This document shows, piece by piece, positions 3,855 to 49,562 of a stretch of DNA of 64,000 bases (its first letter is position 1; each line of letters begins with the position of its first letter). The DNA comes from Nocardioides coralli. GTDB taxonomy: Bacteria > Actinomycetota > Actinomycetes > Propionibacteriales > Nocardioidaceae. Both the position numbers and the translations under genes were made by a program. The stretch covers positions 2,356,001 through 2,420,000 of the forward strand of contig NZ_CP082273.1 in assembly GCF_019880385.1 (NCBI RefSeq), read 5' to 3'. The notes under the pieces were generated by a model. The model searched no databases and was not told the origin of the DNA. It was given only the letters and a program-made list of their open reading frames with translations.

Positions 3855-3915
3855 TGCCGTGCCTTTCCCGCACCGTCGGTGCCTGTGGTGATGCCTGTGC
3901 TGCATGCCGTGGACG

Positions 3916-3969
3916 CGAAGGAGGCCGGTCCGATGAACGCGTCGTGCTCCATCGGACCGGCCTCCTTCG
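3916..3969 (-). terminator. 20-bp perfect stem-loop between tsf and pyrH
   Basis: Arms at 3916-3935 and 3950-3969 are exact inverted complements over 20 bases, with a 14-base loop. No T-run follows on the minus strand. It lies 67 bases past the tsf stop and 61 bases before the pyrH GTG. It may be a (partial) rho-independent terminator of the rpsB-tsf transcript or an mRNA 3' stabiliser; high-GC actinobacteria often lack the U-tract. The structure is certain, the function inferred. Confidence 0.75.
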
Positions 3970-4036
3970 GTTGCCTGATGTGGCGGTGGGTGAACCCTAC
4001 CGGCAGGTCCGGGTCACCGATCGTGCCGCGACCCGG

Positions 4037-4846: not shown

Positions 4847-4900
4847 GTGTCCTCTTCCTCGCAGTCGTGTGGGTGGTGGTGGCGGGTGCCTCGGCCTGGG

Positions 4901-7123: not shown

Positions 7124-7132
7124 GCTCGGCGC

Positions 7133-8071: not shown

Positions 8072-8089
8072 GGGGCGAGCCTAGGCGGG

Positions 8090-9238
8090 TCATCGCGCCG
8101 ATCCCGGGAGGTCGGAGCGACCACGCCGACCCAGCCGCCACCCCGCGGCGTCGCGGACGACGAAGTCGCGCTCGGCGAGATAGGTCAACGCTGTCTGTGT
8201 GTGGAGCAGGGCGATGCCGGCGGTCGCGGCGATCGACTCCAGGCCCGCCGGGTGGCGCACCGGCACCGCCTCGAGCACCTGGCGGTGCCGACGGGTGAGC
8301 CGGTCGCGCGGCCGCTCGGGCGCCCGGGGGACGTCGACGAGGTGCTCCCCCGCACCGCCGACCATCTCCAGCAGGTCGGCCGGACCGGTCACCAGGCTGG
8401 CGGCCCCGCTGCGGATCCACTGGTGAACGCCCTGAGAGGGGGCGCTCGTGACCGGGCCGGGCACCCCCATGAGGGGGCGGCTGAGACTGGTCGCCCAGGC
8501 GGCCGTGTTGAGTGCGCCGCTGCGGATCGCCGCCTCGACCACGACGGTGCCGCAGGTGAGGGCCGCGATGATCCGGTTGCGGGCGAGGAACCGGACGGGC
8601 AGGGGGGCGCACCCGGGCGGGAGCTCGGACACCACCGCTCCGGTGGCGGCGAGGTGGTCGATGAGGGCTCGGTGCTCGACCGGGTAGGGGCGGTCCGCCC
8701 CGCAGGCGAGAACCGCCACCGACGCCCCATCGAGCGCGAGCGCGCCGCGGTGGGCGGCCTGGTCGATCCCGAAGGCCGCCCCGGAGACCAGGCAGCGGCC
8801 GGCACGGGCGACGCCGGCGCCGAGCTCGCGGGCCACGCTCTCGCCGTACGCCGTCGCCGACCGTGAGCCGACCACGGCGACCGATCCGCCCACCTCGTCG
8901 AGCCGCTGCGGACCCCGCACCCAGAGCCCGATGGGGCGGCCGCCGAGGTCGGACACGCTGGGGGCGTGGTCGAGGTCGTCGAGCTGCGTCGGCCACTCGG
9001 TGTCACCCGGGACCAGGAACCTGATGCCGCGGGTCGCGGCCTGCTCGAGCTCGCGGGCGGGGTCCAGCCGCGTCAGCCGGCCGGCCGCGTCGGCCACGAG
9101 GTCGTCGGTGGACCGGTTGGCCAGCACGTCCTCGTAGAGGCGCACCGCGCCCACCTGCGCCAGGGCGCGAGTCACCCGGGGGTCAGCGGGCTCCGTCAGC
9201 CGGCACAGGGCCGCCCGCGCGAGGCGCTCGTCGGTCAC
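8090..9238 (-). CDS. dprA: DNA-processing protein DprA
   Basis: Protects incoming single-stranded DNA and loads RecA during natural transformation. The 382-aa protein has a Rossmann-like DprA/Smf core (VAVVGSRSATAYGESVARELG, SGAAFGIDQAAHRGAL, LACGADRPYP) and a C-terminal winged-helix region. GTG 9238 overlaps the comM TGA by 4 bases (GTGA), which decides the start; an 86-codon extension to 9496 lies inside comM and is rejected. Confidence 0.93.
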   Translation of the reverse strand: MTDERLARAALCRLTEPADPRVTRALAQVGAVRLYEDVLANRSTDDLVADAAGRLTRLDPARELEQAATRGIRFLVPGDTEWPTQLDDLDHAPSVSDLGGRPIGLWVRGPQRLDEVGGSVAVVGSRSATAYGESVARELGAGVARAGRCLVSGAAFGIDQAAHRGALALDGASVAVLACGADRPYPVEHRALIDHLAATGAVVSELPPGCAPLPVRFLARNRIIAALTCGTVVVEAAIRSGALNTAAWATSLSRPLMGVPGPVTSAPSQGVHQWIRSGAASLVTGPADLLEMVGGAGEHLVDVPRAPERPRDRLTRRHRQVLEAVPVRHPAGLESIAATAGIALLHTQTALTYLAERDFVVRDAAGWRLGRRGRSDLPGSAR

Positions 9239-10824
9239 GACGCCACCCGTCGCAACGTCTCCGACCCCAGGGGCTCGCCGGTTCGCAGCAGCAACGCGGT
9301 GCGGGCGTCGGCCACCGAGGGCGTCGGTGCGCCGCGGAGGTCCGCCACCGTCCACGCCATGCGGTGCACCCGCGTCGCCCCCCGGCGGCTCAGCAGCCCG
9401 CGGTACATCTGGTCGTCGATCACCGCCTGCGCCTCCGCGGTCAACGGCCACTCCTTGGTCAGGGCAGGCCCCGGGGTCTGGCCGTTGAGACGCCAACCGC
9501 GGCCCGCGAAGCGCTCGGCCTGCCGGGTGCGTGCCGTCGTCACGCGCGCCCGGACCGTGCTGGAGGACTCCGGTGCGGCGAACCGGTCGCGGGCGTCGTG
9601 CGGCTGCAGCGGCTCGAGGTGACGGGTGATGTCGATCCGGTCCGTGATCGGGCCGCGGACCCGCCGGCGGTAGTCCTGCCGCTGCACCTCGCGGCAGGTG
9701 CAGCGGTTGCCGCCCGCCGTGGGGCGGTAGTCGCCGCAGGGGCAGGGGTTCGCGGCGAAGACCACGAGGCCGCGGGCGGGGTAGGTCACCGTGTCGTCAC
9801 CCCGGGCAATGGTGACCTCGCCGCTCTCGAGCGGCTGGCGCAGGGCGTCGATGACATCCGTCCGTAGCAGCGGGAACTCGTCGAGCAGCAGCACTCCGCA
9901 GTGGGCCCGACTGATCTCGCCGGGGCGGACGCGACCAGAGCCGCCGCCGACGATGCTCGCCTTGCTGGCGTCGTGGTGGGGGCCCGCGAAGGGCGGCCGG
10001 GTGATCAGCCCGTCGCCCTCCTCCAGCGCGCCCGCGAGCGAGTGCAGGGCCGTCACCTCGATCGACTCCTCCAGCGTCAGGTCCGGGAGGATCGTGGGTA
10101 GCCGCTCGGCGAGCGTCGTCTTGCCGCACCCCTTGGGACCGCTCAGCAGCAGGTGGTGGCCTCCCGCCGCCGCCACCTCCACGGCGTAGCGTGCGTCAGG
10201 CATCCCGAGGACGTCGGCCATGTCGACCTCGTCGAGACGCCCCTGACCGCGCCAGGAGAGCAGCCGTTCCGCGGACATCGGCGCCACCGGGGGCGCCTCC
10301 GGCACCTCGCTGCCGGTCAGCTGGGCGAGCACCTGCCCCAGGGAACGGACGCCCAGCACCTCGACGTCGGGGACCATCGCCGCCTCGTGCGCCTGTGGCT
10401 CCGGGACGAACACGCGACGGATGCCCCGCCGGCTGGCGGCCAGCGTCATCGGGAGCACGCCCGGCACCGCACGGAGCCCACCGTTGAGCGTGAGCTCCCC
10501 GACGAACACGGATCCGTTCACGTCCACCTCGGGGATCAGCCGGTCGGCCTTGAGGACGGCCAGCGCGATGGCGAGGTCGAAGTGGGTGCCCCGCTTGGGC
10601 AGGTCGGCCGGCGAGAGCAGGATCGTGACCCGCTTGGACGTCGGCCAGGGCAGGCCGGTGTTGTGGACCGCCATCTGGCAGCGGTGGTGCGCCTGGTTCA
10701 GCGACACGTCGCAGCGCCCGACCATGGTGAGGCCGGCCTGGCCCGGCGACACGTCAGCCTGGACGTCGACCAGGTGGCCGACCGCCCCGTCGAGGGCGAT
10801 CGTGGGGGTGGAGGCGACGGGCAT
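9235..10824 (-). CDS. comM: YifB/ComM-family AAA+ ATPase (Mg-chelatase-like)
   Basis: A hexameric helicase of the ComM/YifB family, which promotes branch migration during integration of transforming DNA. The 529-aa protein has an N-terminal Lon-protease-like fold without an obvious Ser-Lys dyad. Walker A reads GPKGCGKTTLAERLP, Walker B reads GVLLLDEFPLL, and a C-terminal Mg-chelatase domain has a Cys pattern (NPCPCGDYRPTAGGNRCTC). ATG 10824 overlaps the yraN stop by 4 bases (ATGA). Confidence 0.93.
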   Translation of the reverse strand: MPVASTPTIALDGAVGHLVDVQADVSPGQAGLTMVGRCDVSLNQAHHRCQMAVHNTGLPWPTSKRVTILLSPADLPKRGTHFDLAIALAVLKADRLIPEVDVNGSVFVGELTLNGGLRAVPGVLPMTLAASRRGIRRVFVPEPQAHEAAMVPDVEVLGVRSLGQVLAQLTGSEVPEAPPVAPMSAERLLSWRGQGRLDEVDMADVLGMPDARYAVEVAAAGGHHLLLSGPKGCGKTTLAERLPTILPDLTLEESIEVTALHSLAGALEEGDGLITRPPFAGPHHDASKASIVGGGSGRVRPGEISRAHCGVLLLDEFPLLRTDVIDALRQPLESGEVTIARGDDTVTYPARGLVVFAANPCPCGDYRPTAGGNRCTCREVQRQDYRRRVRGPITDRIDITRHLEPLQPHDARDRFAAPESSSTVRARVTTARTRQAERFAGRGWRLNGQTPGPALTKEWPLTAEAQAVIDDQMYRGLLSRRGATRVHRMAWTVADLRGAPTPSVADARTALLLRTGEPLGSETLRRVAS

Positions 10825-36228: not shown

Positions 36229-38268
36229 TTGGACTACCGCGATGCCCTCTCGGAGACCCTCGAGGTCCTCCGAACCATCGCCTCCGAGCACACCCCCGCC
36301 GTGCTGGCCAACGCGTTCGGTCCCGAGAGCATGGTCATGACCGACCTCATCGCCGAGCACGACCTCGACATCGGGATCTTCAGCATCGACACGGGTCGGC
36401 TCCCGGAGGAGACGCACGCGCTGGCCCACAGCGTGCACACCCGCTACGGCCACATGATCGAGATGGTCAACCCCGACCCCGTCGAGGTGGCGGCGTGGAC
36501 CGCCGAGCACGGGCAGAACGGGTTCTACGACGCCGTCGAGCTCCGTCACGGCTGCTGCGGGGTCCGGAAGGTCGCTCCGCTGCGCCGGGTCCTGTCCGGC
36601 AAGCGGGCCTGGCTCACCGGCCTCCGTCGCGAGCAGTCAGTCACGCGTCGGGACCTCAGCGTGCGGTCGTGGGACGACGACTACGGCCTCGAGAAGTTCA
36701 ACCCCATGCTCGAGTGGACCACCGACCAGGTCTGGGCCTACATCCACGACCACGCGGTGCCCTACAACAAGCTCTACGACCGGGGCTACACCAGCATCGG
36801 CTGCGCCCCCTGCACCCGTGCGGTGTCGCCCGGGGAGGACCCCCGGGCCGGTCGCTGGTGGTGGGAGGTCGACGCCGTCAAGGAGTGCGGCGTCCACTTC
36901 GACCCGGCCACGGGGCGGATGCAGCGCGCCGCGGCCAGCCAGCCCGAGGGGCAGCCGCAGGTGGCGGCGGCCGCCCCGGTCACCCCCGAACACAGCATCG
37001 ACTCGTCAGACGACCAACGCTCGCAGCTCGAGCCGCAGACCGCGGCCTCGGTGAACGATGAAGGGAAAGCAATGCGCGTACTCATCCTCGGTGGAGACGG
37101 ATTCTGCGGATGGCCCACCGCCCTGCACCTGTCGGCGCAGGGTCACGAGGTCGCCATCGTCGACAACCTGTCCCGTCGCAAGATCGACATCGAGCTCGAG
37201 GTCTCCTCGCTCACCCCGATCCGGCACATGGGCGAGCGGCTGCGCGCGTGGCAGGAGGTCTCCGGCAAGGAGATCGCCTTCCACGACATCGACGTCGCCA
37301 TCAACTACCAGCGGCTGCTGGACCTGCTGGAGGACTGGCAGCCCGACGCGCTGGTCCACTTCGCCGAGCAGCGGGCGGCGCCCTACTCCATGAAGAGCAG
37401 CCGCCACAAGCGCTACACCGTCAGCAACAACCTCAACGCGACCAACAACGTGCTGGCCGCGGTGGTCGAGAGCGGGCTGGACATCCACGTCGTCCACCTC
37501 GGCACGATGGGCGTCTACGGCTACGGCACCGCCGGCATGAAGATCCCCGAGGGCTACCTGCAGGTGAAGGTGGACACGGGCAACGGCCTGGTCGACCAGG
37601 AGATCCTCTACCCCGCCAACCCGGGCAGCATCTACCACATGACGAAGACGCAGGACCAGCTGCTCTTCGCCTACTACAACAAGAACGACCACGTCCGGGT
37701 CACCGACCTCCACCAGGGCATCGTGTGGGGGACGCAGACCGCCGAGACCCGGCAGGACGAGCGCCTCATCAACCGGTTCGACTACGACGGCGACTACGGC
37801 ACGGTCCTCAACCGGTTCCTGATGCAGGCCGCGATCGGCTACCCGCTGACCGTGCACGGGACCGGCGGCCAGACCCGCGCCTTCATCCACATCCAGGACA
37901 CGGTGAAGTGCATCGAGCTGGCGCTCGGCAACCCTCCCGCCCGGGAAGACCGCGTCCAGATCTTCAACCAGATGACCGAGACGCACCGCGTCCGCGACCT
38001 GGCGAAGATGATCTCGGACCGCACCGGGGTGAAGGTCGCGAACCTGCCCAACCCCCGCAACGAGGCCGACGAGAACGAGCTCCACGTCGCCAACGAGCGC
38101 TTCCTGCACCTCGGCCTCACCCCCATCACCCTCAGCGAGGGCCTGATGGAGGAGGTCACCGAGATCACGAAGAAGTACGCCGACCGCTGCGACGAGTCGA
38201 AGATCCCGTGCGTCTCGGTCTGGAGCGATGACGCCGCCGCCGCGAAGGCCACCGCACCCGCCGAATGA
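36229..38268 (+). CDS. APS reductase CysH fused to UDP-sulfoquinovose synthase SqdB
   Basis: One 679-aa frame with two enzymes. Residues 1-232 are an assimilatory APS reductase. Cys109-Cys110 (RHGCCGVRK) and Cys192-x2-Cys195 (GCAPCTRAV) are the [4Fe-4S] ligands, and Cys220 (KECGVH) is the nucleophile. Residues 233-281 are a Gln/Ala/Pro-rich linker. Residues 282-679 are a SQD1/SqdB-type SDR: GGDGFCGW nucleotide loop, Thr426 in HLGTMG, Tyr469-x3-Lys473 (YHMTK) and QGIVWGTQTAETRQDERLIN. CysH makes sulfite from APS; SqdB adds sulfite to a UDP-glucose-derived intermediate. The start is TTG 36229 with AGGGGG upstream. An internal ATG at 37072 (AAGGG 6 bases before) could also yield free SqdB. Confidence 0.92.
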   Translation: MDYRDALSETLEVLRTIASEHTPAVLANAFGPESMVMTDLIAEHDLDIGIFSIDTGRLPEETHALAHSVHTRYGHMIEMVNPDPVEVAAWTAEHGQNGFYDAVELRHGCCGVRKVAPLRRVLSGKRAWLTGLRREQSVTRRDLSVRSWDDDYGLEKFNPMLEWTTDQVWAYIHDHAVPYNKLYDRGYTSIGCAPCTRAVSPGEDPRAGRWWWEVDAVKECGVHFDPATGRMQRAAASQPEGQPQVAAAAPVTPEHSIDSSDDQRSQLEPQTAASVNDEGKAMRVLILGGDGFCGWPTALHLSAQGHEVAIVDNLSRRKIDIELEVSSLTPIRHMGERLRAWQEVSGKEIAFHDIDVAINYQRLLDLLEDWQPDALVHFAEQRAAPYSMKSSRHKRYTVSNNLNATNNVLAAVVESGLDIHVVHLGTMGVYGYGTAGMKIPEGYLQVKVDTGNGLVDQEILYPANPGSIYHMTKTQDQLLFAYYNKNDHVRVTDLHQGIVWGTQTAETRQDERLINRFDYDGDYGTVLNRFLMQAAIGYPLTVHGTGGQTRAFIHIQDTVKCIELALGNPPAREDRVQIFNQMTETHRVRDLAKMISDRTGVKVANLPNPRNEADENELHVANERFLHLGLTPITLSEGLMEEVTEITKKYADRCDESKIPCVSVWSDDAAAAKATAPAE

Positions 38269-39005
38269 CCGAGGAGTCCCTGCCTGACGCCGCCCCGGAC
38301 GGGGGCCGGGGCGGCGTCACGTGGCGCGAGCTCCAGTCGTACTTCCCGAACTCGCGGATCAGCACCTACCTGAAGCCACTGCCGTCCCACGACCTGCTGT
38401 ACGTCAAGAACCCGAAGGCCGCGTGCTCGACCCTGCTGCTGTGGTTGGACAGGATCCACACGGGCGAGAAGAACTTCCGTCCCACGAACATCCATCAGGA
38501 GCACCGGCTGCCGTCCATCCGGCAGGTGGGCCGACGACGCGTGCTCAGCATGATCCGCGGAACGGCCTTTCGGTTCACCTTCGTCCGACACCCCCTGCGC
38601 CGACTCGAATCGGTCTATTGGGACAAGGTGGCGGACAACCCCAGGTGGCGCACCCGGATGCAGGCCATGCTCGACGTGCCGCAGGATCCAGCAGAGCAGA
38701 TCTCGTTCGAGCAGTTCCTCAGCGCTGTGGAGCTCCAGCCCGTGATCGACATGGACCCGCACTGGCGGCCGCAGCACGTCAATCTCCTGCACCCGCTGGT
38801 CGCCTATGACCGCGTCGGTCGGGTCGAGAGCTTCGACGCGGACCTGCAACGGATTCGGGACGAGGCAGGTCTTCCCGCGCTGCCGTGGGAGAGGCGCAAC
38901 TCCTCACGGCACCAGACGCCCGAGAGCGTCTATGCCAACCGGCCAGACCTGGTACGCCGGGCGGAACGCATCTACGAGAAGGACTTCGAGCTCTACGGGT
39001 ACTGA
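38265..39005 (+). CDS. PAPS-dependent sulfotransferase (family 2 type)
   Basis: A 246-aa cytosolic sulfotransferase. The 5'-phosphosulfate loop is KNPKAACSTLLLWL (about residues 48-61) and the 3'-phosphate site is FVRHPLRRLESVYW (106-119, with Arg108 and Ser116). Family 2 members sulfate carbohydrates. The ATG overlaps the CysH-SqdB TGA by 4 bases, so it is translationally coupled. Base composition appears somewhat less GC-biased than its neighbours. The acceptor is probably a glycan or glycolipid. Confidence 0.85.
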   Translation: MTEESLPDAAPDGGRGGVTWRELQSYFPNSRISTYLKPLPSHDLLYVKNPKAACSTLLLWLDRIHTGEKNFRPTNIHQEHRLPSIRQVGRRRVLSMIRGTAFRFTFVRHPLRRLESVYWDKVADNPRWRTRMQAMLDVPQDPAEQISFEQFLSAVELQPVIDMDPHWRPQHVNLLHPLVAYDRVGRVESFDADLQRIRDEAGLPALPWERRNSSRHQTPESVYANRPDLVRRAERIYEKDFELYGY

Positions 39006-39041: not shown

Positions 39042-39785
39042 TCAGCGATGCAGGTCGCGGATCCGGTCGATGGTCATCTCCGGCAGCGACCGCAGGATGG
39101 ACTTGCGCCCACTGCTCTCGACCACGAGCGAGAAGTCACGGCGCCGCTTGAAGATGATCGTGTCGCGCACCACCACGTGCCTCCACCCGCGCGACATCGT
39201 CTCGACGGCGAACTGCCAGTCCTGGAACGAGAGCCCGTTCGGGATGTCCCGGTGCACGTAGGGCACCTCGAGGTGTGCCTCCCGGGGGGTGAGGCAGAGC
39301 GAGTCGTAGCCGTTGCGGACGTAGAGGAAGTACGGCGTGAACAGCGGGGAGTCCTGGTCGACGTTCTGGAGCAGGTACTTGCCGCCGTCGAAGACGATGT
39401 TGACCTCCGGGTGGGCGATCACACGCTCACCCCGGGCTTCTGCGGCCGTGAGCGTGTCCAGGCCCCTGGCCAGCCAGTTCTCGCTGAACAGGTCATCGGC
39501 GTCGAGGAAGGCGATGTGTCGGCCGTCCGTTCTCGGGATGAGTGCGTTCCGGACCCTGCCGAGGTCGCCGTGGTCCATCTCCCAGCGCTCCCAGTGGTCG
39601 AAGGCCGGTTGGTGGAAGTAGTCGGTGGTCTCGGGTGTCGCCTTGTCCAGCGCGACGATGGTCTGGACGGTGTAGCCGGCGTCTCGCGCGGCCTGCACCG
39701 CGAGATCGGCCGCCGTCATCGTGGGCCCGCACACGAAGGTCTCGTTGTGCGCTGTCACGACCAGCGACAGGTCGACGGCGGTCAT
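39042..39785 (-). CDS. family 2 glycosyltransferase, copy A
   Basis: A 247-aa GT-A enzyme. It begins DLSLVVTAHNETFVCGP and has the DxD metal site in HIAFLDADDLFSENW, followed by IAHPEVNIVFDGG, IPNGLSFQDWQFAVETM and IIFKRRRDFSLV. The donor and acceptor are unknown. Its ATG overlaps the GT4 copy A stop by 4 bases. Its closest visible relative is copy B at 45091-45834. It converges on the sulfotransferase with a 36-base gap. Confidence 0.85.
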   Translation of the reverse strand: MTAVDLSLVVTAHNETFVCGPTMTAADLAVQAARDAGYTVQTIVALDKATPETTDYFHQPAFDHWERWEMDHGDLGRVRNALIPRTDGRHIAFLDADDLFSENWLARGLDTLTAAEARGERVIAHPEVNIVFDGGKYLLQNVDQDSPLFTPYFLYVRNGYDSLCLTPREAHLEVPYVHRDIPNGLSFQDWQFAVETMSRGWRHVVVRDTIIFKRRRDFSLVVESSGRKSILRSLPEMTIDRIRDLHR

Positions 39786-41623
39786 GTGCCCTCACCACCT
39801 TCCCGGCTCTCCAGGAGGACCCGGCGGGCGCGATCGGTGAACTGCTCGATCGTGCGGTCCTGCAGCAGCCGCTCGCGGAGCGCAGCCGCGCGCCTGCGCG
39901 CCTCCCCCGGATCTGCGAGAACCTCACGGATGGCACGCTCGTAGGCCGCCGCGCCCGCCTCGGCGTCGACCGGCCAGGCGTCGGCCTCGCTGACGACCTC
40001 GCCGGTACCACCGACCTGGGTCGCCACGATCGGGATCCCGGTCATCGCCACCTCCAGGAGCTGGCTCGGGACCCCGTCCCAGCCCGAGGTGTAGAGCCAG
40101 GCGTCGGCCTCGGCGAGGGGGATCTCCGTGATGTGCCCGTAGCGGCCCTCGATGCTCAGGTTGGCCGGCGCCTCCGGGGGCTGGCCCCCCATGACGGTCT
40201 CGCCCCAGACCCGGAAGTCCACGTCTGGCATCAGACCAGCCACCTCGAGCAGCAGCGGCACGCGCTTCTGCCGATCCCACCGACCGGCCCAGAACACCTG
40301 CGGCCTGCCGGTCGGCGACGGCTCGTGGGCCGGGGTCGGCAGCGAGTCGTCGACGGGGGCACGGAAGACGTGGATCCGGGACCGCGCTGCATCCGTCACC
40401 CGGTACATCCGCGTCAGCTCACCGGCGAGGTACTCGCTGTCGGTGATCACGCCGGCGACGTCGTCGAAGGCCCGGTAGAAGTAGCGGAGGCTCCAGCCCT
40501 CCCAGGTTCCGAGACCGGACTGCTCGTTGCAGAAGAAGCAGAGAAAGACCCGCTCGGTCGCGGTCAGCGCACGCCCGTACGTGCGCAAGGCGTGGTATAG
40601 CATCCGCGAGTTGATGGTGACGATGGCGTCCGCCCGGAGCGACCGCAGCAACACGACGAGGGATCGCTGGGCGTGCTCCTTGGGCATGTGGGCGGTCAGC
40701 TGCGCGAAGTCGAGCTCCCTGACGCCGTCGGGGAAACGCCCCTGGGGGGACGTCGTGCTGTCGTCGGTGTAGATGACCACGATGTCGTCGGGAGCCAGGT
40801 CGCCGACGAGGGCGTGGGCGAGGTGCCCTTCCAGGCGGCGGCCGCCGCCCCAGCGTGCGCGGTTGATGACCAGGACGAGCCGGGCCTGGCGCCACCCCAG
40901 ATCCTCGTGTGCGCGGAACAGGGCGTGCTGCTGATCGGCCACGGGGGCGGTGCTCAACGGAAGCAGCTTGGGATCGGCCACCTCAGTCCAGGCCGCCCCG
41001 ATCAGGGGTTCGATCTCAGCCGCCTTGGCCATCATGGCTCCGAGCGTGCCCGTCCGAAACCGATCCTGGAGGTCTCGGCGGCGTTCGGCCATCGTGTCGA
41101 CCAGCTCCGCGGGCGGCAGGCCGAGGACCTGTGCCATCCGCATCACGCGCGGCGTGGGGTCGGCGATCTCCCCCGCGTCCCGACCCCGCTTGAGCCACGC
41201 GAGGTAGGGGCTGCGCTCACGCCCCTGTGCCCGCCGGGGGAACCGACCGAGGTAGTTGCTCATGGAGAAATCGGGGTGCGGGCTGAGCCCCCGGTCGACG
41301 CCGTGCTCGAGGAAGTGCTCGATGAGGTCCACGCCCCGCTGGTTCAGGAGCTCCGGGGTCTGGAGCAGGTAGTGACGCGTGTCGAAGTTCGCCCGGAGCA
41401 GGTCGTAGTCGGCGTCCTCCCCGGGGGGTCGCATGGCCAGCTGTGCGCGGAAGACCTGCTCGTCCATGACCGGCCCGAGGTGTGTGGTCTCGGGCACCGG
41501 ATCGGGTACGGGGACGAAGGAGACCATCGGGGCCTCCCGGGTCGCCGGGACCGGCAACCTCCTCCGGAGGCCGGCCGCCTTGGTGCGGATCCTGGCCGAG
41601 AGGGAACGTGGGCTGCCCGTCAC
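39782..41623 (-). CDS. large GT4-type glycosyltransferase, copy A
   Basis: A 613-aa protein. The N-terminal third has repeats of the polysaccharide-GT type (FDTRHYLLQTPEL..., DFSMSNYLGRFP..., PYLAWLKRGRDAGE). The C-terminal half is GT-B: GGGRRLEGHLAHAL, FWAGRWDRQKRVPLLLEVAG, DAWLYTSGWDGVPSQLLEVA and PIVATQVGGTGEVV. GTG 41623 is chosen for its AGGAGG 8 bases upstream. With the GT2 it forms a coupled pair, duplicated at 45.1-47.6 kb. It is divergent from the sulfotransferase-like array across a 158-base promoter region. Confidence 0.85.
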   Translation of the reverse strand: MTGSPRSLSARIRTKAAGLRRRLPVPATREAPMVSFVPVPDPVPETTHLGPVMDEQVFRAQLAMRPPGEDADYDLLRANFDTRHYLLQTPELLNQRGVDLIEHFLEHGVDRGLSPHPDFSMSNYLGRFPRRAQGRERSPYLAWLKRGRDAGEIADPTPRVMRMAQVLGLPPAELVDTMAERRRDLQDRFRTGTLGAMMAKAAEIEPLIGAAWTEVADPKLLPLSTAPVADQQHALFRAHEDLGWRQARLVLVINRARWGGGRRLEGHLAHALVGDLAPDDIVVIYTDDSTTSPQGRFPDGVRELDFAQLTAHMPKEHAQRSLVVLLRSLRADAIVTINSRMLYHALRTYGRALTATERVFLCFFCNEQSGLGTWEGWSLRYFYRAFDDVAGVITDSEYLAGELTRMYRVTDAARSRIHVFRAPVDDSLPTPAHEPSPTGRPQVFWAGRWDRQKRVPLLLEVAGLMPDVDFRVWGETVMGGQPPEAPANLSIEGRYGHITEIPLAEADAWLYTSGWDGVPSQLLEVAMTGIPIVATQVGGTGEVVSEADAWPVDAEAGAAAYERAIREVLADPGEARRRAAALRERLLQDRTIEQFTDRARRVLLESREGGEGT

Positions 41624-41781: not shown

Positions 41782-42891
41782 ATGAATCCGCCCCGCCTCC
41801 GCGGACGCCAGACGGCGTCCCCCTCGTCCGGGAACACCACCCAGGACCTGGTGCTCCACATCGGGACCGGCAAGACAGGAACGTCCTCCCTCCAGGCCTT
41901 CCTCCACCAGAACCGCGACCACCTGGTGGCCCACGGGGTGCTCTACCCGCGCGCGCCCGGGTCCACCCGGCACACGCGCTTCGGGCTCTACATCAAGCCG
42001 GACCAGGCACTGCTCTCGACCCCCTCCTGGAAGCGCGCAAAGGCCGCGACCCCCGCCGAGTTCCGTCGGCGGTTCGAGCGGGAGCTGCTCGCCGAGATCG
42101 CCGACGCCGGGACTCCCCGGGTTCTCGTGTCCGACGAAGCCCTCTACGGCATGCCCGCAGCAGCCATGCGGCGGCTCCGTGACTTCGCCGAGTCGCACGG
42201 CTGGCGAAGCACCATCGTGTGCTACCTCCGGCGTCAGGACGACCATCTCGTCAGCCGGTACCAACAGGTGGTCAAGGTCGGCGAGACCCGACGTCTGGCC
42301 GAGCGGACCCGCGCCATGGACCTGTCGGAGACCTACGACTACCACGCGCGCCTGGACCTGTGGGAGGAGGTCCTCGAGCCCGCGTCGGTGGTGGTACGTC
42401 GTTTCGAGCGCGACAGCATGCTGGGCGGCTCGCTGTTCCAGGACTTCCTCGATGCGGTCGGGGTGGACGCCGGGGTCGACGAGCTCGAACCGGTGACCGA
42501 GCGCAACGTGAGCCTGGACGCCGAGGCGGTGGAGTTCCTCCGGCTCCTGAACCTGCATCGCGTGGAGCGCGAGGGTGCGGTGCCGGGCCACATCGACAAC
42601 CGGCAGGTGGCCGCCAGGCTCGCCGAGGCGTCGACCGGACCCACGCTGACCCTCCCCGACGACCTCCTCGATGAGTTCATGTCGCAGTGGGAGGAGTCCA
42701 ACCGCAAGGTCGCCACCCGCTACCTGGCCGACTCGTCCGGCGTGCTGTTCCGCTCCCCGCGCAAGGACAGCGGCACCACGAGCCTGCAACGCCTCGATCC
42801 GTCGCGCGTGGGCCACCTGCTCGAGGTAGCCGGCGTCGACGGCGATCTTCGGGAGCCGCTGTGCCGCTTGATCGACCGGGAGGACGGGTAG
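41782..42891 (+). CDS. sulfotransferase-like protein, paralog 1
   Basis: A 369-aa protein. Near the N-terminus DLVLHIGTGKTGTSSLQAFL is the P-loop-like phosphosulfate site. YLRRQDDHLVSRYQQVVKVG matches the 3'-phosphate region. The C-terminal half has ERNVSLDAEAVEFLRLLNL, IDNRQVAARLAEASTGPTL and QWEESNRKVATRYL. These blocks recur in paralog 3. A GAGAGG site lies upstream of ATG 41782. The acceptor is unknown; a glycan is inferred from the context. Confidence 0.8.
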   Translation: MNPPRLRGRQTASPSSGNTTQDLVLHIGTGKTGTSSLQAFLHQNRDHLVAHGVLYPRAPGSTRHTRFGLYIKPDQALLSTPSWKRAKAATPAEFRRRFERELLAEIADAGTPRVLVSDEALYGMPAAAMRRLRDFAESHGWRSTIVCYLRRQDDHLVSRYQQVVKVGETRRLAERTRAMDLSETYDYHARLDLWEEVLEPASVVVRRFERDSMLGGSLFQDFLDAVGVDAGVDELEPVTERNVSLDAEAVEFLRLLNLHRVEREGAVPGHIDNRQVAARLAEASTGPTLTLPDDLLDEFMSQWEESNRKVATRYLADSSGVLFRSPRKDSGTTSLQRLDPSRVGHLLEVAGVDGDLREPLCRLIDREDG

Positions 42892-42894
42892 CAG

Positions 42895-43995
42895 ATGCAT
42901 CTCGTCCTCCACCCCGGCATGGGCAAGACCGGTACCTCCACCATCCAGACGTTCCTCAGGACGAACCGCGCGACGCTGCTCGAGCACGGGGTGCTCTACC
43001 CGACCACCCCTGGACAGGTGCGCCACCTGCGCCTCGGCTTGTTCATCACGCCGGACGCGACCTTCTCGGGGAGTCGGGTGGCCCACCGGGAGCGTCGGGA
43101 CCCGCGCTGGCGCGAGGTCATCGATCACTCACCCGCGGGCTTTCGCGAAGCGTTCCGTCGAGCCCTGCTCGACGAGGTCGAGCGGAGCGGCGCGTCTCGG
43201 GTCGTTCTCTCCGACGAAGCGGTGTTCAGGGCCCCCGACGCATCCCTGCGCATCCTCGGAGACTTCACGAGCGCCCACGCGCAGTCCCTGCGCGTGGTGT
43301 GCTACCTGCGCCGACAGGACGACCACCTGGTCAGCCGCTACCAGCAGGCTGTGAAGACGGGCGAGGTGCGCAGGATGGCAGACCGCACGGACGAGATCGA
43401 CCTGGTCGGTGTTTACGACTTCGCCGGGCGACTGAGGGCATGGGAACGGCTGGTCCAGCCGACCCAGCTGATCGTGCGTCGCTTCGACAGGAGCGAGTTC
43501 CGAGAGGGCTCGCTCATCGAGGACTTCCTAGACGCGGCTGGAATCGCCATCCCCGGCCAGCAGCTGCAGCCCGTGCCCCGCCGCAACGAGAGCCTCGACG
43601 CCGAGTCGGTGGAGTTCCTGCGACTCGTCAACCTGCACCGGGTCGAGGCGGAGGGCGGACGCCCGGGGCGCCTCAACAACCGCAAGCTCACCAAACGACT
43701 CACGGCTGCGTGTCAGGGTCCGACGCTCACGCTTCCCGGCACGGTCCTGGACGCCTTCATGGCCAGGTGGGAGGCCGGGAACCGCGAGGTGGCGAGCAAG
43801 TACTTCGGCGAGGACGGAGATCTGTTCCACGTCCCACGCAAGACCGAGGGCACGACCGTGCACCAGTACCTCGACCCGTCTCGCCTGCCCGACCTGTTCG
43901 ACATCACCGAGCTCCCCCGGCGTCTCAGGGAACCGGTGCGCCGCCTGGCCGAGCGCGAGGCGGCGGTCTCTCGCCCCGAGGCGGGCACCAGGTGA
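42895..43995 (+). CDS. sulfotransferase-like protein, paralog 2 (divergent copy)
   Basis: A 366-aa protein starting 3 bases after paralog 1. It keeps HPGMGKTGTSTIQTFLRTNR and YLRRQDDHLVSRYQQAVKTG. The last third differs from paralogs 1 and 3: INDR-type and STGPTL blocks become LNNRKLTKRL and CQGPTLTLPGTVLD, and QWEESNR becomes RWEAGNR. It may therefore have another acceptor. No independent ribosome binding site is obvious, so coupling is likely. Confidence 0.8.
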   Translation: MHLVLHPGMGKTGTSTIQTFLRTNRATLLEHGVLYPTTPGQVRHLRLGLFITPDATFSGSRVAHRERRDPRWREVIDHSPAGFREAFRRALLDEVERSGASRVVLSDEAVFRAPDASLRILGDFTSAHAQSLRVVCYLRRQDDHLVSRYQQAVKTGEVRRMADRTDEIDLVGVYDFAGRLRAWERLVQPTQLIVRRFDRSEFREGSLIEDFLDAAGIAIPGQQLQPVPRRNESLDAESVEFLRLVNLHRVEAEGGRPGRLNNRKLTKRLTAACQGPTLTLPGTVLDAFMARWEAGNREVASKYFGEDGDLFHVPRKTEGTTVHQYLDPSRLPDLFDITELPRRLREPVRRLAEREAAVSRPEAGTR

Positions 43996-45089
43996 CTCCA
44001 CGCCAATCCGGACCCGCGGATGCTCCCCGAGTCCCCGTGGACCTGGTGCTGCACATCGGGACGGGCAAGGCGGGCAGCACCTCGCTGCAGTTCTTCCTGC
44101 GCGACAACCGCGACCGGCTCGCTGAGCTCGGCGTGCTCTACCCGAGCTCCCCCGGCCGGGCCCGCCACGGCAAGCTCAGCCTCTTCATCCGCGACGGTGA
44201 CGAGCTGGTGGCCACCCCGCACTGGCAGCGCCAGCGGCAGTCCGACCCACGGATCTTCAGACGAAGGTTCCGGCGCCGCCTGCTGGCCGAGATCGAAGAC
44301 TCCGGCCTCGACCGGGTGCTGCTGTCGGACGAGGAGATCTACAAGTCGTCCGACGCCGCGCTCACGAGGCTGCGACGCTTCACCGACCAGGTGGCCCGGC
44401 GGGTACGTGTGGTCGTCTACCTGCGGCGCCAGGACGAGCACATGGTCAGTCGATACCAGCAGGGGGTGAAGATCGGCTGGACCACCCGGTTGGCCGACTG
44501 GGCCAACGAGGACATGTCCGATCTCTACGACTACGCCTCCCGGCTCCGCAAGCACCGGAAGATCCTCGGGCCCGATCCGCTCGTCGTGCGTCGGCTCGAC
44601 CCGGCGTGCCTGCTCCGGGGATCGCTGTTCGAGGACTTTCTCGAGGCCGCCGGTATCGAGGCGACGGGGGTCCCGTTGACCTCGGTCACCCACCGCAACG
44701 TCAGCCTCGACGCCGAGAGCGTGGAGTTCCTGCGCATCCTGAACCTCTACCGGGTCGAGCACGAGGGTGCCATCCCGGGTCTGATCGACAACCGCAGCGT
44801 CGCCTCCCGGCTGGGCAGCTCCTCGACTGGCCCGACTCTCTCGCTGCCACCACGGCAGCTCGACGCCTTCATGGAGCAGTGGGAGGAGTCGAACCGCGTC
44901 GTGGCACGGGAGTTCGTCGGCGACCGCAGCGGCCCGCTCTTCCCCACGCCCCGCAAGGACGGCGGGAGTGTGATGGAGCAGAGCCTCGACCCCGCACGCG
45001 TCGATCATCTCTGCGAGGTCGCGGAGCTTCCTGACGGCCTGCGTCCCGAGCTGCGCAGGCTGGCCGAGCGCGAGGCGCGACGGGGTTGA
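43992..45089 (+). CDS. sulfotransferase-like protein, paralog 3
   Basis: A 365-aa protein. GTG 43992 overlaps the paralog 2 TGA by 4 bases (GTGA). It has DLVLHIGTGKAGSTSLQFFL, YLRRQDEHMVSRYQQGVKIG, HRNVSLDAESVEFLRILNL, IDNRSVASRLGSSSTGPTL and QWEESNRVVAREF. It resembles paralog 1 more than paralog 2. Its stop is one base from the stop of GT2 copy B, leaving no room for a terminator. An upstream in-frame extension to 42687 only shadows paralog 2. Confidence 0.8.
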   Translation: MTPRQSGPADAPRVPVDLVLHIGTGKAGSTSLQFFLRDNRDRLAELGVLYPSSPGRARHGKLSLFIRDGDELVATPHWQRQRQSDPRIFRRRFRRRLLAEIEDSGLDRVLLSDEEIYKSSDAALTRLRRFTDQVARRVRVVVYLRRQDEHMVSRYQQGVKIGWTTRLADWANEDMSDLYDYASRLRKHRKILGPDPLVVRRLDPACLLRGSLFEDFLEAAGIEATGVPLTSVTHRNVSLDAESVEFLRILNLYRVEHEGAIPGLIDNRSVASRLGSSSTGPTLSLPPRQLDAFMEQWEESNRVVAREFVGDRSGPLFPTPRKDGGSVMEQSLDPARVDHLCEVAELPDGLRPELRRLAEREARRG

Positions 45090-45090: not shown

Positions 45091-45834
45091 TCAGTCCCGT
45101 CGACCGAGAGCCCGCACCCGGTCGACCGCCATCGCAGGCAGGGACCTGACGAGCGAGCTGCGGCCGTTGCTCTCGGTCACCAGCGAGAAGTCGCGCCGCC
45201 GCTTGAAGATGATCGTGTCGGGCACCACGAGGTGCTCCCAGCCGGCAGCCATCGTCTCGATCGTGAACTGGTAGTCCTGGAAGGAGAGGCCGTTCGGGAT
45301 GTCTCGCGACACATAGGGGATCTCGAGGTGGGCGGCGCGCGGCGCCAGGCACAGCGAGTCGTAGTAGTGACGGACGTACAGGTAGTGCGGCGTGAACAGG
45401 AGCGAGTCCTGAGCGATGTTGAGGCGCACCGCCTGTCGGCCGTCGAAGATCACGTTGAGCTCGGGATGGGCGATCGCGCGGCGACCCTCCTCGGCGGCGG
45501 CGTCGAGGGCTGCGACACCCTCGGCCAGCCAGTTCTCGCTGAACAGGTCGTCCGCGTCGAGAAAGGCGACGTGGCGGCCGTCGACGTCGGCGAGCACCGC
45601 GTTGCGGACCCTCCCCAGGTCACGCTCGTGGAGGACGCGCCGTTCCCAGTGGTCGAAGTGGGGCTGGTCGAAGTAGCGAGAGGTCGCATCCGTGGGCGCG
45701 TCGAGGGCGATGACGGCCTGCACGACGTACCCCCGCTCCCGGGCAGCCGCCACCGCGATGTCCGCCGAGCGCATCGTGGGCCCGCACACCGTCGTCTCGT
45801 CGTGTGCCGTCACCACCAGGGTCAGGTCGGTCAC
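45091..45834 (-). CDS. family 2 glycosyltransferase, copy B
   Basis: A 247-aa protein, the same length as copy A. It carries DLTLVVTAHDETTVCGPTM, HVAFLDADDLFSENWLAEG, IAHPELNVIFDGR, IPNGLSFQDYQFTIETM and IIFKRRRDFSLVTES. The ATG overlaps the GT4 copy B stop by 4 bases. Acidic DxD residues are intact, so both copies are probably active. The donor sugar is unknown. Confidence 0.85.
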   Translation of the reverse strand: MTDLTLVVTAHDETTVCGPTMRSADIAVAAARERGYVVQAVIALDAPTDATSRYFDQPHFDHWERRVLHERDLGRVRNAVLADVDGRHVAFLDADDLFSENWLAEGVAALDAAAEEGRRAIAHPELNVIFDGRQAVRLNIAQDSLLFTPHYLYVRHYYDSLCLAPRAAHLEIPYVSRDIPNGLSFQDYQFTIETMAAGWEHLVVPDTIIFKRRRDFSLVTESNGRSSLVRSLPAMAVDRVRALGRRD

Positions 45835-47648
45835 GAGTCCTCACCCCCACCGTCGACCAGCAGCACCTGCGCGACATGGGCCGCGAAGTCGGTCGCGGAC
45901 CGCTCCCGGAGCAGCCGCTCGCGGAGCGCGTGGGAGCGTCGGCGGGCCCCCACCGGGTCCGTCAGCACCTCCCGGAGTGCGGCGACGTAGGCGGCCGGGT
46001 CCTCCGGCTCCGTGACCGGCCAGGCGTCCTCCGGGCTGAGGACCTCACCGGTGCCGCCCACCAGGCTCCCGACCAGGGGCACTCCGGTCATGCCGACCTC
46101 GAGCAGCTGGCTCGGGACCCCGTCCCAGGCCGAGGTGTAGAGCCAGGCGTCGGCGTCGTCGAGGGCGACCTCGGAGATGTGGCCGTAGCGGCCCTCCAGG
46201 GCGACGTTGGCCGGGGCGGCACCGCGGCGGCCCCCGGGCATCACGGTCTCGCCCCACACGCGGAAGTCGACGTCGGGCATCCGGCTCGCGATCTCCATGA
46301 GCACGTCGACGCGCTTCTGCCGGTCCCACCGCCCTGCCCAGAACACCTGCGGTCGGCGTCCGGCAGCGGGTGTCGGGGCCGTCGACTCGGGCAGGGTCGC
46401 GTCGACCGGCGCCCGGAGGGCCTGGATCTTCGCCCCGTCCTCCTCTCCCAGCTGGTGCCGGTCGCGCAGCCAGCCCGCGAGGTACTCGCTGTCGGTGAGC
46501 ACCCCCGCCACCTGGTCGAAGTTGCGGTAGACCTGGCGCAGCGGCAGGCCCACCCAGTTGCCGAGCGCCAGCTGCTCGTTGCAGAAGAGCATGAGAAAGA
46601 CCCGCTCGGAGGCGCGCAGTGCCCGTCCGTAGGTGGCCAGCGCGGCGTACATGAGGTCGGAGTTGACGACGACCACCGCGTCGGCCCGGAACGAGCGGAC
46701 CAGCTCGACCAGGACGCGCTGGGCGGGCTCCGCTTCGAGGTCGCCGACGGCCGTCGCCAGGTCGACCTCCCGGACGCCGGCCGGGAACCGGTCGGGCGGC
46801 GTGGTCCCGGTGTCGTCGGTGTAGACGACCACGATCCGGTCCGCCCCTACCACGGGCGCGAGTGCGTGGGCGAGGTGGCCCTCCATGCGGCGTCCCCCGC
46901 CCCACCGAGGGCGCTTGACGACCAGCACGAGGCGTGCAGTGGCGAAGCCGGCCTGGTCGTGGCACTGATGGAGCGCGGCGACCTGACCGGCGATGGTCGG
47001 TGAGTCCATCGGGGGGATCACGGGGCGGGCGGTCTCCGACCAGGCCTCGCCGATGAGGGGCTCGACCTCGACCGCCTGCGCGAACATCTGCCCCAACGTG
47101 CCGTGACGCAACCGCTCCTGGAGATCGGACCGGGTCCGGACGAGGGCGTCAGCCAGCTCGTGCGGGTCCGTGTCGAGCACCCGGGAGATCTCGGCGAGCC
47201 CCGGGGCCGGATCGGCGATCTCTCCCTGCGCCCGGCCCTCCTCGAGCCACGCCAGCCACGGGCTGCGACCGGTGCCGTCACGTCGCTCGGGATGCCGTTG
47301 CAGGTAGGACCGCATGTCGAAGTTGATCTCGGGACTGGCCTTGGCATCCGGCCCGTTGCGCAGGAAGTGGCGCAACGGGTCGATGCGGTCGTCCTCTGCG
47401 AGACCCCGCGCCTGCAGGAAGAAGTGGGCGATGTCGAAGTGCTCGCGCGCGAGGTCGTAGTCGGAGTCGGCCCCGGGCGGCATCATCCGCGACCGCGCCC
47501 GGCTGACTGCGTCGTCCAGTGCCGGCCCCAGCCGGGTCGGCCGCTCCACGACCGGCGCCGCGGGAGGCGCGGAAGGCGTGTCGGCCCCGCGCCGCCACCG
47601 CGACCAGGCCTGTCGGACCCGTCCCCGTGCGGTCACGTCGTCAGCCAT
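45831..47648 (-). CDS. large GT4-type glycosyltransferase, copy B
   Basis: A 605-aa paralog of copy A with the same architecture: FDIAHFFLQARGL and DMRSYLQRHPE-type repeats, GGGRRMEGHLAHAL, FWAGRWDRQKRVDVLMEIA, DAWLYTSAWDGVPSQLLEVG, VGGTGEVLSPEDAWPV. The start is ATG 47648. It lies 28 bases after the methyltransferase gene, so it is part of the run epimerase-methyltransferase-GT4-GT2. Confidence 0.85.
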   Translation of the reverse strand: MADDVTARGRVRQAWSRWRRGADTPSAPPAAPVVERPTRLGPALDDAVSRARSRMMPPGADSDYDLAREHFDIAHFFLQARGLAEDDRIDPLRHFLRNGPDAKASPEINFDMRSYLQRHPERRDGTGRSPWLAWLEEGRAQGEIADPAPGLAEISRVLDTDPHELADALVRTRSDLQERLRHGTLGQMFAQAVEVEPLIGEAWSETARPVIPPMDSPTIAGQVAALHQCHDQAGFATARLVLVVKRPRWGGGRRMEGHLAHALAPVVGADRIVVVYTDDTGTTPPDRFPAGVREVDLATAVGDLEAEPAQRVLVELVRSFRADAVVVVNSDLMYAALATYGRALRASERVFLMLFCNEQLALGNWVGLPLRQVYRNFDQVAGVLTDSEYLAGWLRDRHQLGEEDGAKIQALRAPVDATLPESTAPTPAAGRRPQVFWAGRWDRQKRVDVLMEIASRMPDVDFRVWGETVMPGGRRGAAPANVALEGRYGHISEVALDDADAWLYTSAWDGVPSQLLEVGMTGVPLVGSLVGGTGEVLSPEDAWPVTEPEDPAAYVAALREVLTDPVGARRRSHALRERLLRERSATDFAAHVAQVLLVDGGGEDS

Positions 47649-47676: not shown

Positions 47677-48618
47677 TCACAGGCGCGGCTTCACAGCCAG
47701 CCGACCCGAACCGAGGGGAACGAGCAGCAGAGGTTCCTTGCGCGCGGCGAGGAACTCGTCGGTGGCCTGGCGGGCGCCCTCCCAGTCGCCGTAGTCGTCG
47801 AGGATCAGCACACCACCGGGCGACAGCCGGTCGTAGAGGTGCTCGAGCTCGTGCTTGGTCGACTCGTACCAGTCCGTGTCGAGCCGCAGCAGCGCGATCT
47901 GCTCCGGCGCCTGGCTCGGCACCGTGTCCTCGACCAGGCCGGCGTGGTAGTGGATCAGCTCGCTCGGGTAGCCCGTCTCCTGCATCCCCTCCTGCACGTC
48001 GTCCAACCCGGCGATGGCCCACACCCGGTGGTCCTTGTCGTGCTGGGCCAGCAGCTCCGCCGCGCTGGCGTTCGGACGCCGGTCCTTGTCGGTGGGGGGC
48101 GGCATGCCCTCGTAGGTGTCGAAGAGGTGCAGCGCACGGTCCGGTGTGCCCTCGTCGAGCAACGTCCACGCCACGGCCTGCATGCTCCCGCCGCGCCACA
48201 CCCCGCACTCGACGACGGCGCCCGGGACCGCGTGCCGGGCGATGTAGCGCGTGGCCTCGATCAGGCCGTAGAGCTTGGCGTGGTCGGTCATGGTCCGCTC
48301 CTGCGAGCGCTCCAGGATGCGCGCAGCCGGGTCGTCGACATGGCGCGGGACAGCCTTCTGCTTCCGCCTCAGCTCGGCGAGACGTCGCTTGGCGGCCTCC
48401 GCCCTCGACTGCGCCTTCTCGGCCCGCTCCGTGAGCTTGCGGGCGCGGTTCCGCGACTTCCGGAGCTCCTCACGGGTGGTGGTGAGCTTGGCCTCCGTCT
48501 CGCGCAGGCGCTCGCCCGTCCCCGTGAGGCTCCTTCCCGCTCCACCGTCCGTCCCGACCCGCTCCAGCTGGTAACCGGTGAGCCGGCGCAGTGCGCCGTT
48601 GACCGACCTCTTCCACAT
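47677..48618 (-). CDS. TylF/MycF-type sugar O-methyltransferase with N-terminal coiled coil
   Basis: A 313-aa protein. Residues 1-18 (MWKRSVNGALRRLTGYQL) look like a membrane- or complex-associated lead. Residues 35-90 are a Lys/Arg/Glu-rich coiled coil. The rest is a TylF-family SAM methyltransferase: GAVVECGVWRGGSMQAVAW, HLFDTYEGMPPPTDKD, LRLDTDWYESTKHELEHLYD and GGVLILDDYGDWEGAR, with metal-binding acidic residues. ATG 48618 is chosen at the typical lead; the frame to 49071 overlaps the epimerase. It probably methylates a sugar of the surface glycan. Confidence 0.85.
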   Translation of the reverse strand: MWKRSVNGALRRLTGYQLERVGTDGGAGRSLTGTGERLRETEAKLTTTREELRKSRNRARKLTERAEKAQSRAEAAKRRLAELRRKQKAVPRHVDDPAARILERSQERTMTDHAKLYGLIEATRYIARHAVPGAVVECGVWRGGSMQAVAWTLLDEGTPDRALHLFDTYEGMPPPTDKDRRPNASAAELLAQHDKDHRVWAIAGLDDVQEGMQETGYPSELIHYHAGLVEDTVPSQAPEQIALLRLDTDWYESTKHELEHLYDRLSPGGVLILDDYGDWEGARQATDEFLAARKEPLLLVPLGSGRLAVKPRL

Positions 48619-48638: not shown

Positions 48639-49562
48639 TCAGCCGACGTCCCGTGCCCGGAACCACTCCCACGTCCGCGCGAGACCTTCCTCCAGCTTCG
48701 TGACCGGTGCGAAGCCGATGCCCTCCCGGGCCTTGTCGATCTCGCACCAGGTGCGCCGGACCTCGCCGGAGCGGAAGTCCTCGTAGACCACGTCGAGCTC
48801 TTGTCCGGTCGTGGCGCGCATCAGGTCGAGGAGCTCGTTGACCGTGGTGGGCTCGCCGCTGCCGAGCTGGTAGGCGCCGGTGGCATCGCTGTCGATCGCC
48901 GTGCGGATACCCTCGACGAGGTCTCCGACGTAGAGGAAGTCGCGCGCCTGGCTGCCGTCGCCGTAGACGACCAGCGGCTCGCCGGACAGGATCCGCTTGA
49001 AGAAGTGGGCCACCACCGAGCCCTTGTGGAAGGACTTCGGTCCGTAGATGTTGGAGAACCGGAGGGCACACCCGCTCATGCCGTAGGAGCCGGAGTAGGC
49101 ACTCAGGTAGCCCTCCAGCATCAGCTTCGAGGCGCCGTACGGCGAGGTCGGCTGCGCCGCCATCCGCTCGTGGACCGGCGGCGGTACGTCACCCACGATG
49201 GCGCCGCCCGTCGAGGCAGCCACGATGCGCCCGACACCCAGCTCGCGGCAGAGCTCCAGCAGGTTGAACGTCCCCACCACGTTGTTCTCGAAGTTGTGGG
49301 CGGGGTCCTCGATGCTGTCCATGACCCGGGTGTCGGCGGCCAGGTGGACCACCGCGTCCTGCCCCTCCAGCGCCTCGCGGAGCTGGTCGGCGTCGCGCAG
49401 GTCGCCCGGGACGAACCGCACCTGCTCCAGGTCGAGGTTCCGGCGGTCGCCCAGCGACTCGTTGTCGATGACGGTCACGGTGTAGTCGCCGCTGGCGGTC
49501 AGGTGGTCGGCGAGGTGGACGCCGATGAACCCGGCACCGCCGGTGATGAGCACGTTCTTCAC
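48639..49562 (-). CDS. NAD-dependent nucleotide-sugar epimerase/dehydratase
   Basis: A 307-aa extended SDR: VLITGGAGFIGVHLADHL nucleotide loop, AADTRVMDSIEDP, and the Tyr-x3-Lys catalytic pair in SPYGASKLMLEGYL. RFSNIYGPKSFHKGSVV and DGSQARDFLYVGDLV are typical of UDP-hexose 4-epimerases and relatives. The exact substrate is open. GTG 49562 is preferred: AGAGG lies 6 bases upstream, whereas the in-frame GTG at 49568 abuts that site. It is the first gene of the minus-strand glycan run. Confidence 0.85.
   Translation of the reverse strand: MKNVLITGGAGFIGVHLADHLTASGDYTVTVIDNESLGDRRNLDLEQVRFVPGDLRDADQLREALEGQDAVVHLAADTRVMDSIEDPAHNFENNVVGTFNLLELCRELGVGRIVAASTGGAIVGDVPPPVHERMAAQPTSPYGASKLMLEGYLSAYSGSYGMSGCALRFSNIYGPKSFHKGSVVAHFFKRILSGEPLVVYGDGSQARDFLYVGDLVEGIRTAIDSDATGAYQLGSGEPTTVNELLDLMRATTGQELDVVYEDFRSGEVRRTWCEIDKAREGIGFAPVTKLEEGLARTWEWFRARDVG

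Follow-up and report, generated by a model that had tools for sequence, protein, structure and literature searches.

Results

A gene fusion of cysH and sqdB

The window analysed is a stretch of 64,000 nucleotides of the Nocardioides coralli genome (contig NZ_CP082273.1, positions 2,356,001 to 2,420,000). It contains a gene in which a CysH and a SqdB-type UDP-sulfoquinovose synthase are encoded in one frame, with the following parts:

36229..38268, plus strand: whole fused gene, TTG start, 679 codons, TGA stop, no internal stop; full-length relatives known
36229..36924, plus strand: CysH domain of the APS reductase type, residues 1-232, with CC (109-110), CxxC (192-195) and the catalytic KECG Cys220
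36925..37071, plus strand: linker, residues 233-281, of low complexity and predicted to be disordered
37060..37074, plus strand: putative internal translation-start region, GAAGGGAAAGCA (37060-37071) followed by ATG (37072-37074), which encodes Met282
37072..38265, plus strand: SqdB-type UDP-sulfoquinovose synthase domain, residues 282-679, matching SQD1 by sequence and fold

The first-pass annotation of the window had described a single open frame with CysH and SqdB joined by a 49-residue low-complexity linker, and this was confirmed: the 679 codons contain no stop, and the protein matched PF01507 (PAPS_reduct) at residues 25-198 with 141 bits (cut-off 22.5) and PF01370 (epimerase/dehydratase) at residues 284-571. 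All residues named there are present (Cys109/110, Cys192/195, Cys220, GGDGFCGW at 288-295, Thr426 and Tyr469/Lys473).

The search for proteins with both domains that had been proposed returned at least 120 full-length fusion clusters among the matches listed; the best 120 of 7997 protein-database matches were all full-length fusions with 97-100% query cover, 73-100% identity and both Pfam domains, and the organism names among these best 120 were Nocardioides (N. bizhenqiangii and N. antri included), Marmoricola or Nocardioidaceae. The intact fusion was found in 10 of 341 genomes of the same family (G000, G025, G396, G419, G528, G597, G604, G635, G643 and G690), G528 being from another genus; the copy L055 of the named collection is the G635 fusion and was counted once. 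In G651 (70% complete) the fusion is present with a frame that breaks within the CysH part. A scan of the class gave a match in 21 of 394 genomes, the fusions being those of the source genome and of two congeneric ones, and a scan of the phylum gave a match in 39 of 396 genomes, with the fusion in the source genome alone; outside the genus, no fusion was found in these 394 and 396 genomes. More distant fusions may exist, since the class and phylum genomes are samples and the protein listing comprises the best 120 of 7997 matches.

That the fusion is an artefact of sequencing or assembly, made from two separate genes, has a vanishingly small probability: at least 120 fusions are listed, and the independent assemblies of the 10 genomes with the fusion, five of which are single-contig, already refute it. 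The first-pass annotation had named a stop hidden in the linker as a danger to its reading; in 11 fusion loci (G651 included) no linker contains an in-frame stop, while the other forward frames are interrupted in 7 and 6 of the 11. Because at least 120 homologues cover 97-100% of the fusion and the linker is stop-free in 11 loci, chance or a sequencing accident is excluded as its source. The CysH-SqdB fusion is a real protein family. In agreement with the earlier statement that it is not known as a described enzyme, a full-text search of open-access papers (subscription papers being outside its scope) gave, among the titles and abstract openings listed, no description of a fusion of CysH with SqdB.

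With the CysH half as query, at least 14 CysH-only relatives (P0121-P0134, 62-83% identity) were listed, of which 13 were inspected as proteins. Among these, three appear to carry frameshifts (P0125, P0126 and P0131), two are truncated (P0123 and P0133), and six (P0121, P0127, P0128, P0130, P0132 and P0134) may either be genuinely unfused or end with their contig. P0122 and P0124 run, in another frame, a short way beyond the start of SqdB, like overlapping unfused genes, sequencing indels being a possible cause. In the 12 family genomes that have the fusion intact, broken or as a remnant, no unfused pair of the same clade was found. In G575 (L142 and L163, G575:C23) tblastn detected no CysH before an intact SqdB, and by eye a short CysH-like remnant could be seen in the upstream frame. 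Since SqdB persists there without CysH, the gene content of this genome indicates that the fusion is not indispensable.

The SqdB half

The SqdB half matched plant SQD1 (1qrr) at phmmer rank 1 with an E value of 3.9e-98, and SQD1 (1i24) was also rank 1 when the fusion model was compared with the PDB by Foldseek. It is 66-67% identical to Prochlorococcus SqdB. Among the matches listed, the active-site motifs LGTMGVYGYG and YH[ML]TK are present in 120 and 119 of 120 fusions, and the signature [ST]MG ... YxxxK, given for UDP-sulfoquinovose synthases in an excerpt of PMC8987622, is retained. The active site reads TMGVY in 80 of 80 loci of the named collection (one fusion, and Prochlorococcus, Cyanobium, Paracoccus and Rhodobacter included) and TMGEY instead in SQD1 and in more distant actinobacterial SqdB copies (mostly 36-48% identical); judged by these residues, the active site of the half is of the same type as in SqdB from cyanobacteria and alphaproteobacteria. 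Two of the fusion genomes encode an extra, second SqdB of the TMGEY type (L155 on G643:C158 and L154 at G635:C7:59083).

The NCBIfam model NF041015 missed the SqdB half, which scored 345.8 bits against a cut-off of 575, and also missed one TMGEY copy (471.7 bits). This is a curated model of UDP-sulfoquinovose synthase, and Prochlorococcus SqdB is likewise far under its cut-off (327.2 bits). Because that enzyme misses too, the cut-off fails to separate the SqdB proteins of this branch.

The CysH half and the separate CysH

The CysH half matched the APS reductase of P. aeruginosa (2goy) with an E value of 4.6e-50 by sequence and at rank 6 of the PDB entries by Foldseek. With the APS reductase model TIGR02055 (NCBIfam) it scored 233.7 bits, 1.6 below the cut-off of 235.3; the cut-offs of NF002537 (245.6 versus 154) and TIGR00434 (166.9 versus 165.1) were exceeded. 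The Fe-S ligand motifs CC..RK (119/120) and CxxC (120/120), which we take to mark the APS-preferring type of CysH, and the KECG motif of the catalytic cysteine (120/120) are conserved in the fusions among the matches listed. Over both halves, nine of ten catalytic motifs occur in 119 or 120 of the 120 fusions, and GLRR occurs in 112.

The first-pass annotation had suggested that this CysH serves glycan sulfonation rather than cysteine synthesis and that a second, stand-alone cysH with sirA be looked for. Indeed, all 10 genomes with an intact fusion encode a separate CysH no more than 0.5 kb from a protein with two NIR_SIR matches. The label "SirA-like" for this neighbour rests on its place beside cysH, because in the source genome it scores below the NCBIfam cut-offs of its families. 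In a CysH tree of 44 rows, 13 fused CysH formed one clade (support 99/98), nested among stand-alone enzymes, the named ones of which are proteobacterial, and far from the housekeeping CysH of the order. Since a separate CysH is kept in 10 of 10 genomes and the fused CysH belongs to another clade, the latter probably serves sulfosugar synthesis specifically; the suggested role in glycan sulfonation is supported as probable by the separate CysH and by the glycan island described below.

The source genome also encodes CysD/CysN and an APS kinase domain. At L167 (G000:C1:3063001-3083000, 4633-5910) an APS kinase domain carries an extra N-terminal stretch of ~230 residues and lies near cysD/cysN and a TauE-type protein. 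At L168 (G000:C1:596001-616000, 3905-10357) a fourth PF01507 protein lies near a cysteine desulfurase, in a cluster that presumably resembles those for DNA phosphorothioation (Dnd).

Pairs of cysH and sqdB were also seen outside the fusion family. In G024, of the same genus (L026, G024:C1:1612001-1632000, 8092-9964), the gene immediately after sqdB is a second, stand-alone cysH that belongs to the housekeeping lineage, an order opposite to that of the fusion, and in G187 (L047) another CysH adjoins sqdB as well. Because both CysH group with the housekeeping side in the tree, these pairings are, by phylogeny, of an origin independent of the fusion. In a neighbourhood survey of 80 SqdB loci of the named collection, with flanks of up to 8 kb and some of the contigs being short, a CysH was close to SqdB at 1 of the 79 loci outside the fusion family (L107), L055 being the fusion itself, and no CysH was found beside SqdB in 19 loci of the phylum scan with 1.5 kb flanks. 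Since only 1 of 79 named loci outside the family has it, the tying of CysH to SqdB is, as judged from these neighbourhoods, not general.

The linker

An AlphaFold2 model of the fusion (64 sequences) has two folded domains, with a pLDDT below 50 at residues 217-278 and a pTM of 0.56. From the KECG motif to SqdB the linker measures 31-101 residues (median 52) in the 120 fusions listed. Compared with G025, it is 31% identical over 39 aligned residues (dS 1.20, dN 0.66), and the substitution rates of CysH (dS 0.63, dN 0.18, dN/dS 0.29) and SqdB (dS 0.43, dN 0.06, dN/dS 0.14) indicate that both halves are under purifying selection. The reading frame of the linker is maintained despite this fast change.

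The first-pass annotation had proposed that the fusion channels sulfite from one active site to the other and that structure prediction be used to look for a tunnel. In that form the proposal found no support: the linker is disordered in the model, and a tunnel or rigid channel was rejected on account of the disorder and variable length. What is left of channelling is tethering at most, because the linker is predicted to be disordered and is 31-101 residues long; the model argues for flexible tethering rather than a fixed tunnel.

A conserved, probable internal start at the SqdB domain

The purine-rich stretch GAAGGGAAAGCA ahead of Met282, overlooked by the first-pass annotation, is conserved; the site reads GAAGGGAAAGCAATG in the source genome and GGAGGA...ATG in others. 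Among the matches listed, Met is found at the SqdB start in 118 of 120 fusions. In 116 of the 120 a Gly precedes it by two to four residues; P0011 and P0112 lack this Gly but retain the Met, and P0109 and P0113 lack both, the Met having been lost on separate branches. Pairing with the anti-Shine-Dalgarno sequence did not exceed that of synonymous recodings (combined p 0.08 over 7 loci; L137 and L138 were left out for want of a motif match, and L139 was counted apart), and pairing strength was rejected as proof of an internal start. Codon and folding tests were used instead, with 10 Met-bearing loci, G651 included.

Around Met282, 40 of 80 codons in these 10 loci end in A or T, versus 381 of 6168 elsewhere in the same genes. 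The excess was significant singly (p <0.05) in 8 of 10 loci, the exceptions being L135 (0.10) and L141 (0.087). In all 10 loci the local mRNA had less structure than its synonymous recodings (p 0.002-0.007). The pooled p-values of both tests treat the loci as independent and are too small because the loci are related. At L139, where the Met is lost, neither signal was seen (A/T-ending codons 1/8, folding p 0.69). Upstream in this line, which resembles P0109, ATG occurs in frame at distances of 7 and 10 codons, and its internal start may have moved rather than been lost. G575 retains the internal start as well as SqdB.

The point at which the SqdB domain begins has the appearance of a conserved site of translation initiation. 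Because Met, open mRNA and A/T-ending codons are conserved there, one gene probably gives two products, the fusion and a free SqdB, with CysH never free. The idea of a single polypeptide product is probably wrong in view of the conserved internal start and of SqdB surviving the loss of CysH in G575.

The fusion lies in a glycan island

The first-pass annotation had linked the sulfosugar to glycan synthesis, and the neighbourhood agrees with this, since the fusion sits in an island of glycosyltransferases and a sulfotransferase:

38265..39005, plus strand: sulfotransferase (PF03567, 80.7 bits), its ATG overlapping the stop of the fusion (ATGA, 38265-38268)
39042..39785, minus strand: GT2-type glycosyltransferase (Pfam)
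39782..41527, minus strand: GT4-type glycosyltransferase (Pfam in the longer frame, NCBIfam)
41782..45089, plus strand: three tandem paralogous proteins of ~360 residues each (41782-42891, 42895-43995 and 44037-45089)
45091..45834, minus strand: second GT2-type glycosyltransferase (Pfam)
45831..47486, minus strand: second GT4-type glycosyltransferase (Pfam in the longer frame, NCBIfam)
47677..48618, minus strand: TylF-type methyltransferase, absent from the other 9 fusion stretches
48639..49562, minus strand: sugar-nucleotide epimerase/dehydratase (PF01370), with 71-84% identical copies in 6 of the 9 other fusion stretches

The three tandem proteins, which we assume to be sulfotransferase-like from their P-loop motif only, gave no match in Pfam (all three), NCBIfam (first and third) or the PDB (first). 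In a census of the flanks of the 10 intact fusions (64 kb at the source locus, 9.8-20 kb elsewhere), GT2 and GT4 glycosyltransferases were each present in 10, the family of the 41782-42891 protein in 8, and the PF03567 sulfotransferase, the sugar epimerase and ftsY in 7 each; the methyltransferase was seen in the stretch at the source locus only.

The best homologue in G000 of the gene after Prochlorococcus sqdB is a 35% identical GT4 far from the island. Of 35 genomes searched, 25 contain a homologue of that gene with an E value of 1e-40 or better, many of them lacking SqdB, and in the fusion genome G528 the best value was 2.8e-15. SqdX was rejected as a marker of SQDG because such homologues are not diagnostic, and no clear SqdX was found. 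Because of this and of the island with glycosyltransferases and a sulfotransferase, a surface glycan with sulfoquinovose is more likely than SQDG on genomic grounds; perhaps the glycan also carries sulfate esters.

Discussion

We propose, with a probability of roughly 0.6, that the fusion is a bifunctional enzyme for the sulfosugar donor in which sulfite made by CysH is used by the tethered SqdB, and that extra free SqdB comes from the internal start. The CysH half would convert APS and reductant to sulfite; in prokaryotic APS reductases an enzyme thiosulfonate is formed from which thioredoxin releases sulfite, as stated in an excerpt of PMC6827007. The SqdB half, held close by the flexible linker, would then use sulfite and UDP-glucose to form UDP-sulfoquinovose, which would go to the glycosyltransferases of the same island. 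According to excerpts of PMC4388408, UDP-sulfoquinovose synthase dehydrates UDP-glucose and then adds sulfite, Agl3 at low sulfite accumulates UDP-glucose-5,6-ene, isolated synthases have low activity, and the in vivo transfer of sulfite to the synthase is called unknown. Because UDP-glucose-5,6-ene accumulates when sulfite is low, a tethered sulfite source would fit the need of the synthase: it would raise local sulfite, divert none to the SirA/cysteine route and avoid the side product. With the second start supplying free SqdB, CysH would always be tied to SqdB and SqdB could be in excess. The sequences show the fusion and its conservation, the intact motifs, the signature of an internal start, the separate CysH and the island; the activities of the two halves, initiation at the internal site, any gain from tethering and the nature of the final glycan are inferred.

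The fusion might instead tie expression only, having arisen by loss of a stop in an operon, with independent halves, sulfite diffusing to SqdB and SirA alike and no kinetic gain. We regard this as possible but clearly less probable. It would agree with the disordered, variable linker, the model pTM of only 0.56, the retained internal start, SqdB outliving CysH in G575, and P0122 and P0124, which look like overlapping unfused genes (six further CysH-only proteins are possibly unfused too); on the other hand, the linker is stop-free in 11 of 11 loci despite its fast change, at least 120 fusions are listed, and none of the 12 family genomes has an unfused pair of the same clade. It is unlikely that SqdB takes the sulfonate from the thiosulfonate of the CysH tail, or sulfite confined between the tethered sites. 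In that case the fusion would show what UDP-sulfoquinovose synthases really use as sulfur donor in vivo, and the conserved internal start would determine how much free SqdB is made relative to the fusion.

The strict form of such a hand-off, with the Cys220 thiosulfonate as sulfur donor to the SqdB intermediate and no free sulfite at all, appears very improbable. The linker does begin ~13 residues past Cys220, and an enzyme thiosulfonate intermediate has been described for APS reductases (excerpt of PMC6827007), but Agl3 uses free sulfite in vitro (excerpt of PMC4388408), the model has no docked tail and SqdB is kept without CysH in G575. Equally hard to credit is that the SDR half is another UDP-sugar dehydratase or epimerase and is paired with CysH to make some other sulfonated product. 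This would be in line with the missed NF041015 cut-off and with Val429 at the position of Agl3 Glu147, but Prochlorococcus SqdB has the same Val and is likewise below that cut-off, both sequence and fold match SQD1 best, and the [ST]MG..YxxxK signature is retained.

The fusion combines features of several known enzymes. Its SqdB half shares the fold, the Thr-Tyr-Lys triad and the [ST]MG signature with stand-alone bacterial SqdB and plant SQD1, but here a sulfite-producing enzyme is carried at the N-terminus of the synthase. With the assimilatory, [4Fe-4S]-containing CysH of P. aeruginosa (2goy) the CysH half shares CC/CxxC, KECG and the fold; unlike that enzyme, it is joined to its partner after the catalytic tail, and a housekeeping CysH is kept separately beside the SirA-like gene. 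Plant-type APR is likewise an APS reductase with a partner domain, thioredoxin-like, at its C-terminus (excerpt of PMC6827007); the added domain of APR supplies electrons, whereas the partner in the fusion would consume sulfite. Agl3 of Sulfolobus likewise makes a sulfosugar donor for a glycoconjugate (excerpt of PMC4388408) but is stand-alone and differs from the fusion in the Glu147/Val429 position.

As a natural protein in which a sulfite producer is joined to the synthase, the fusion lends itself to testing tethered sulfite supply and, directly, where sulfosugar-making enzymes obtain their sulfite. It would also be a natural case of one gene that gives bifunctional and monofunctional products by a conserved internal start. 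For the actinobacteria of this family, the Nocardioidaceae, the fusion points to a sulfonated glycan, probably of the cell envelope.
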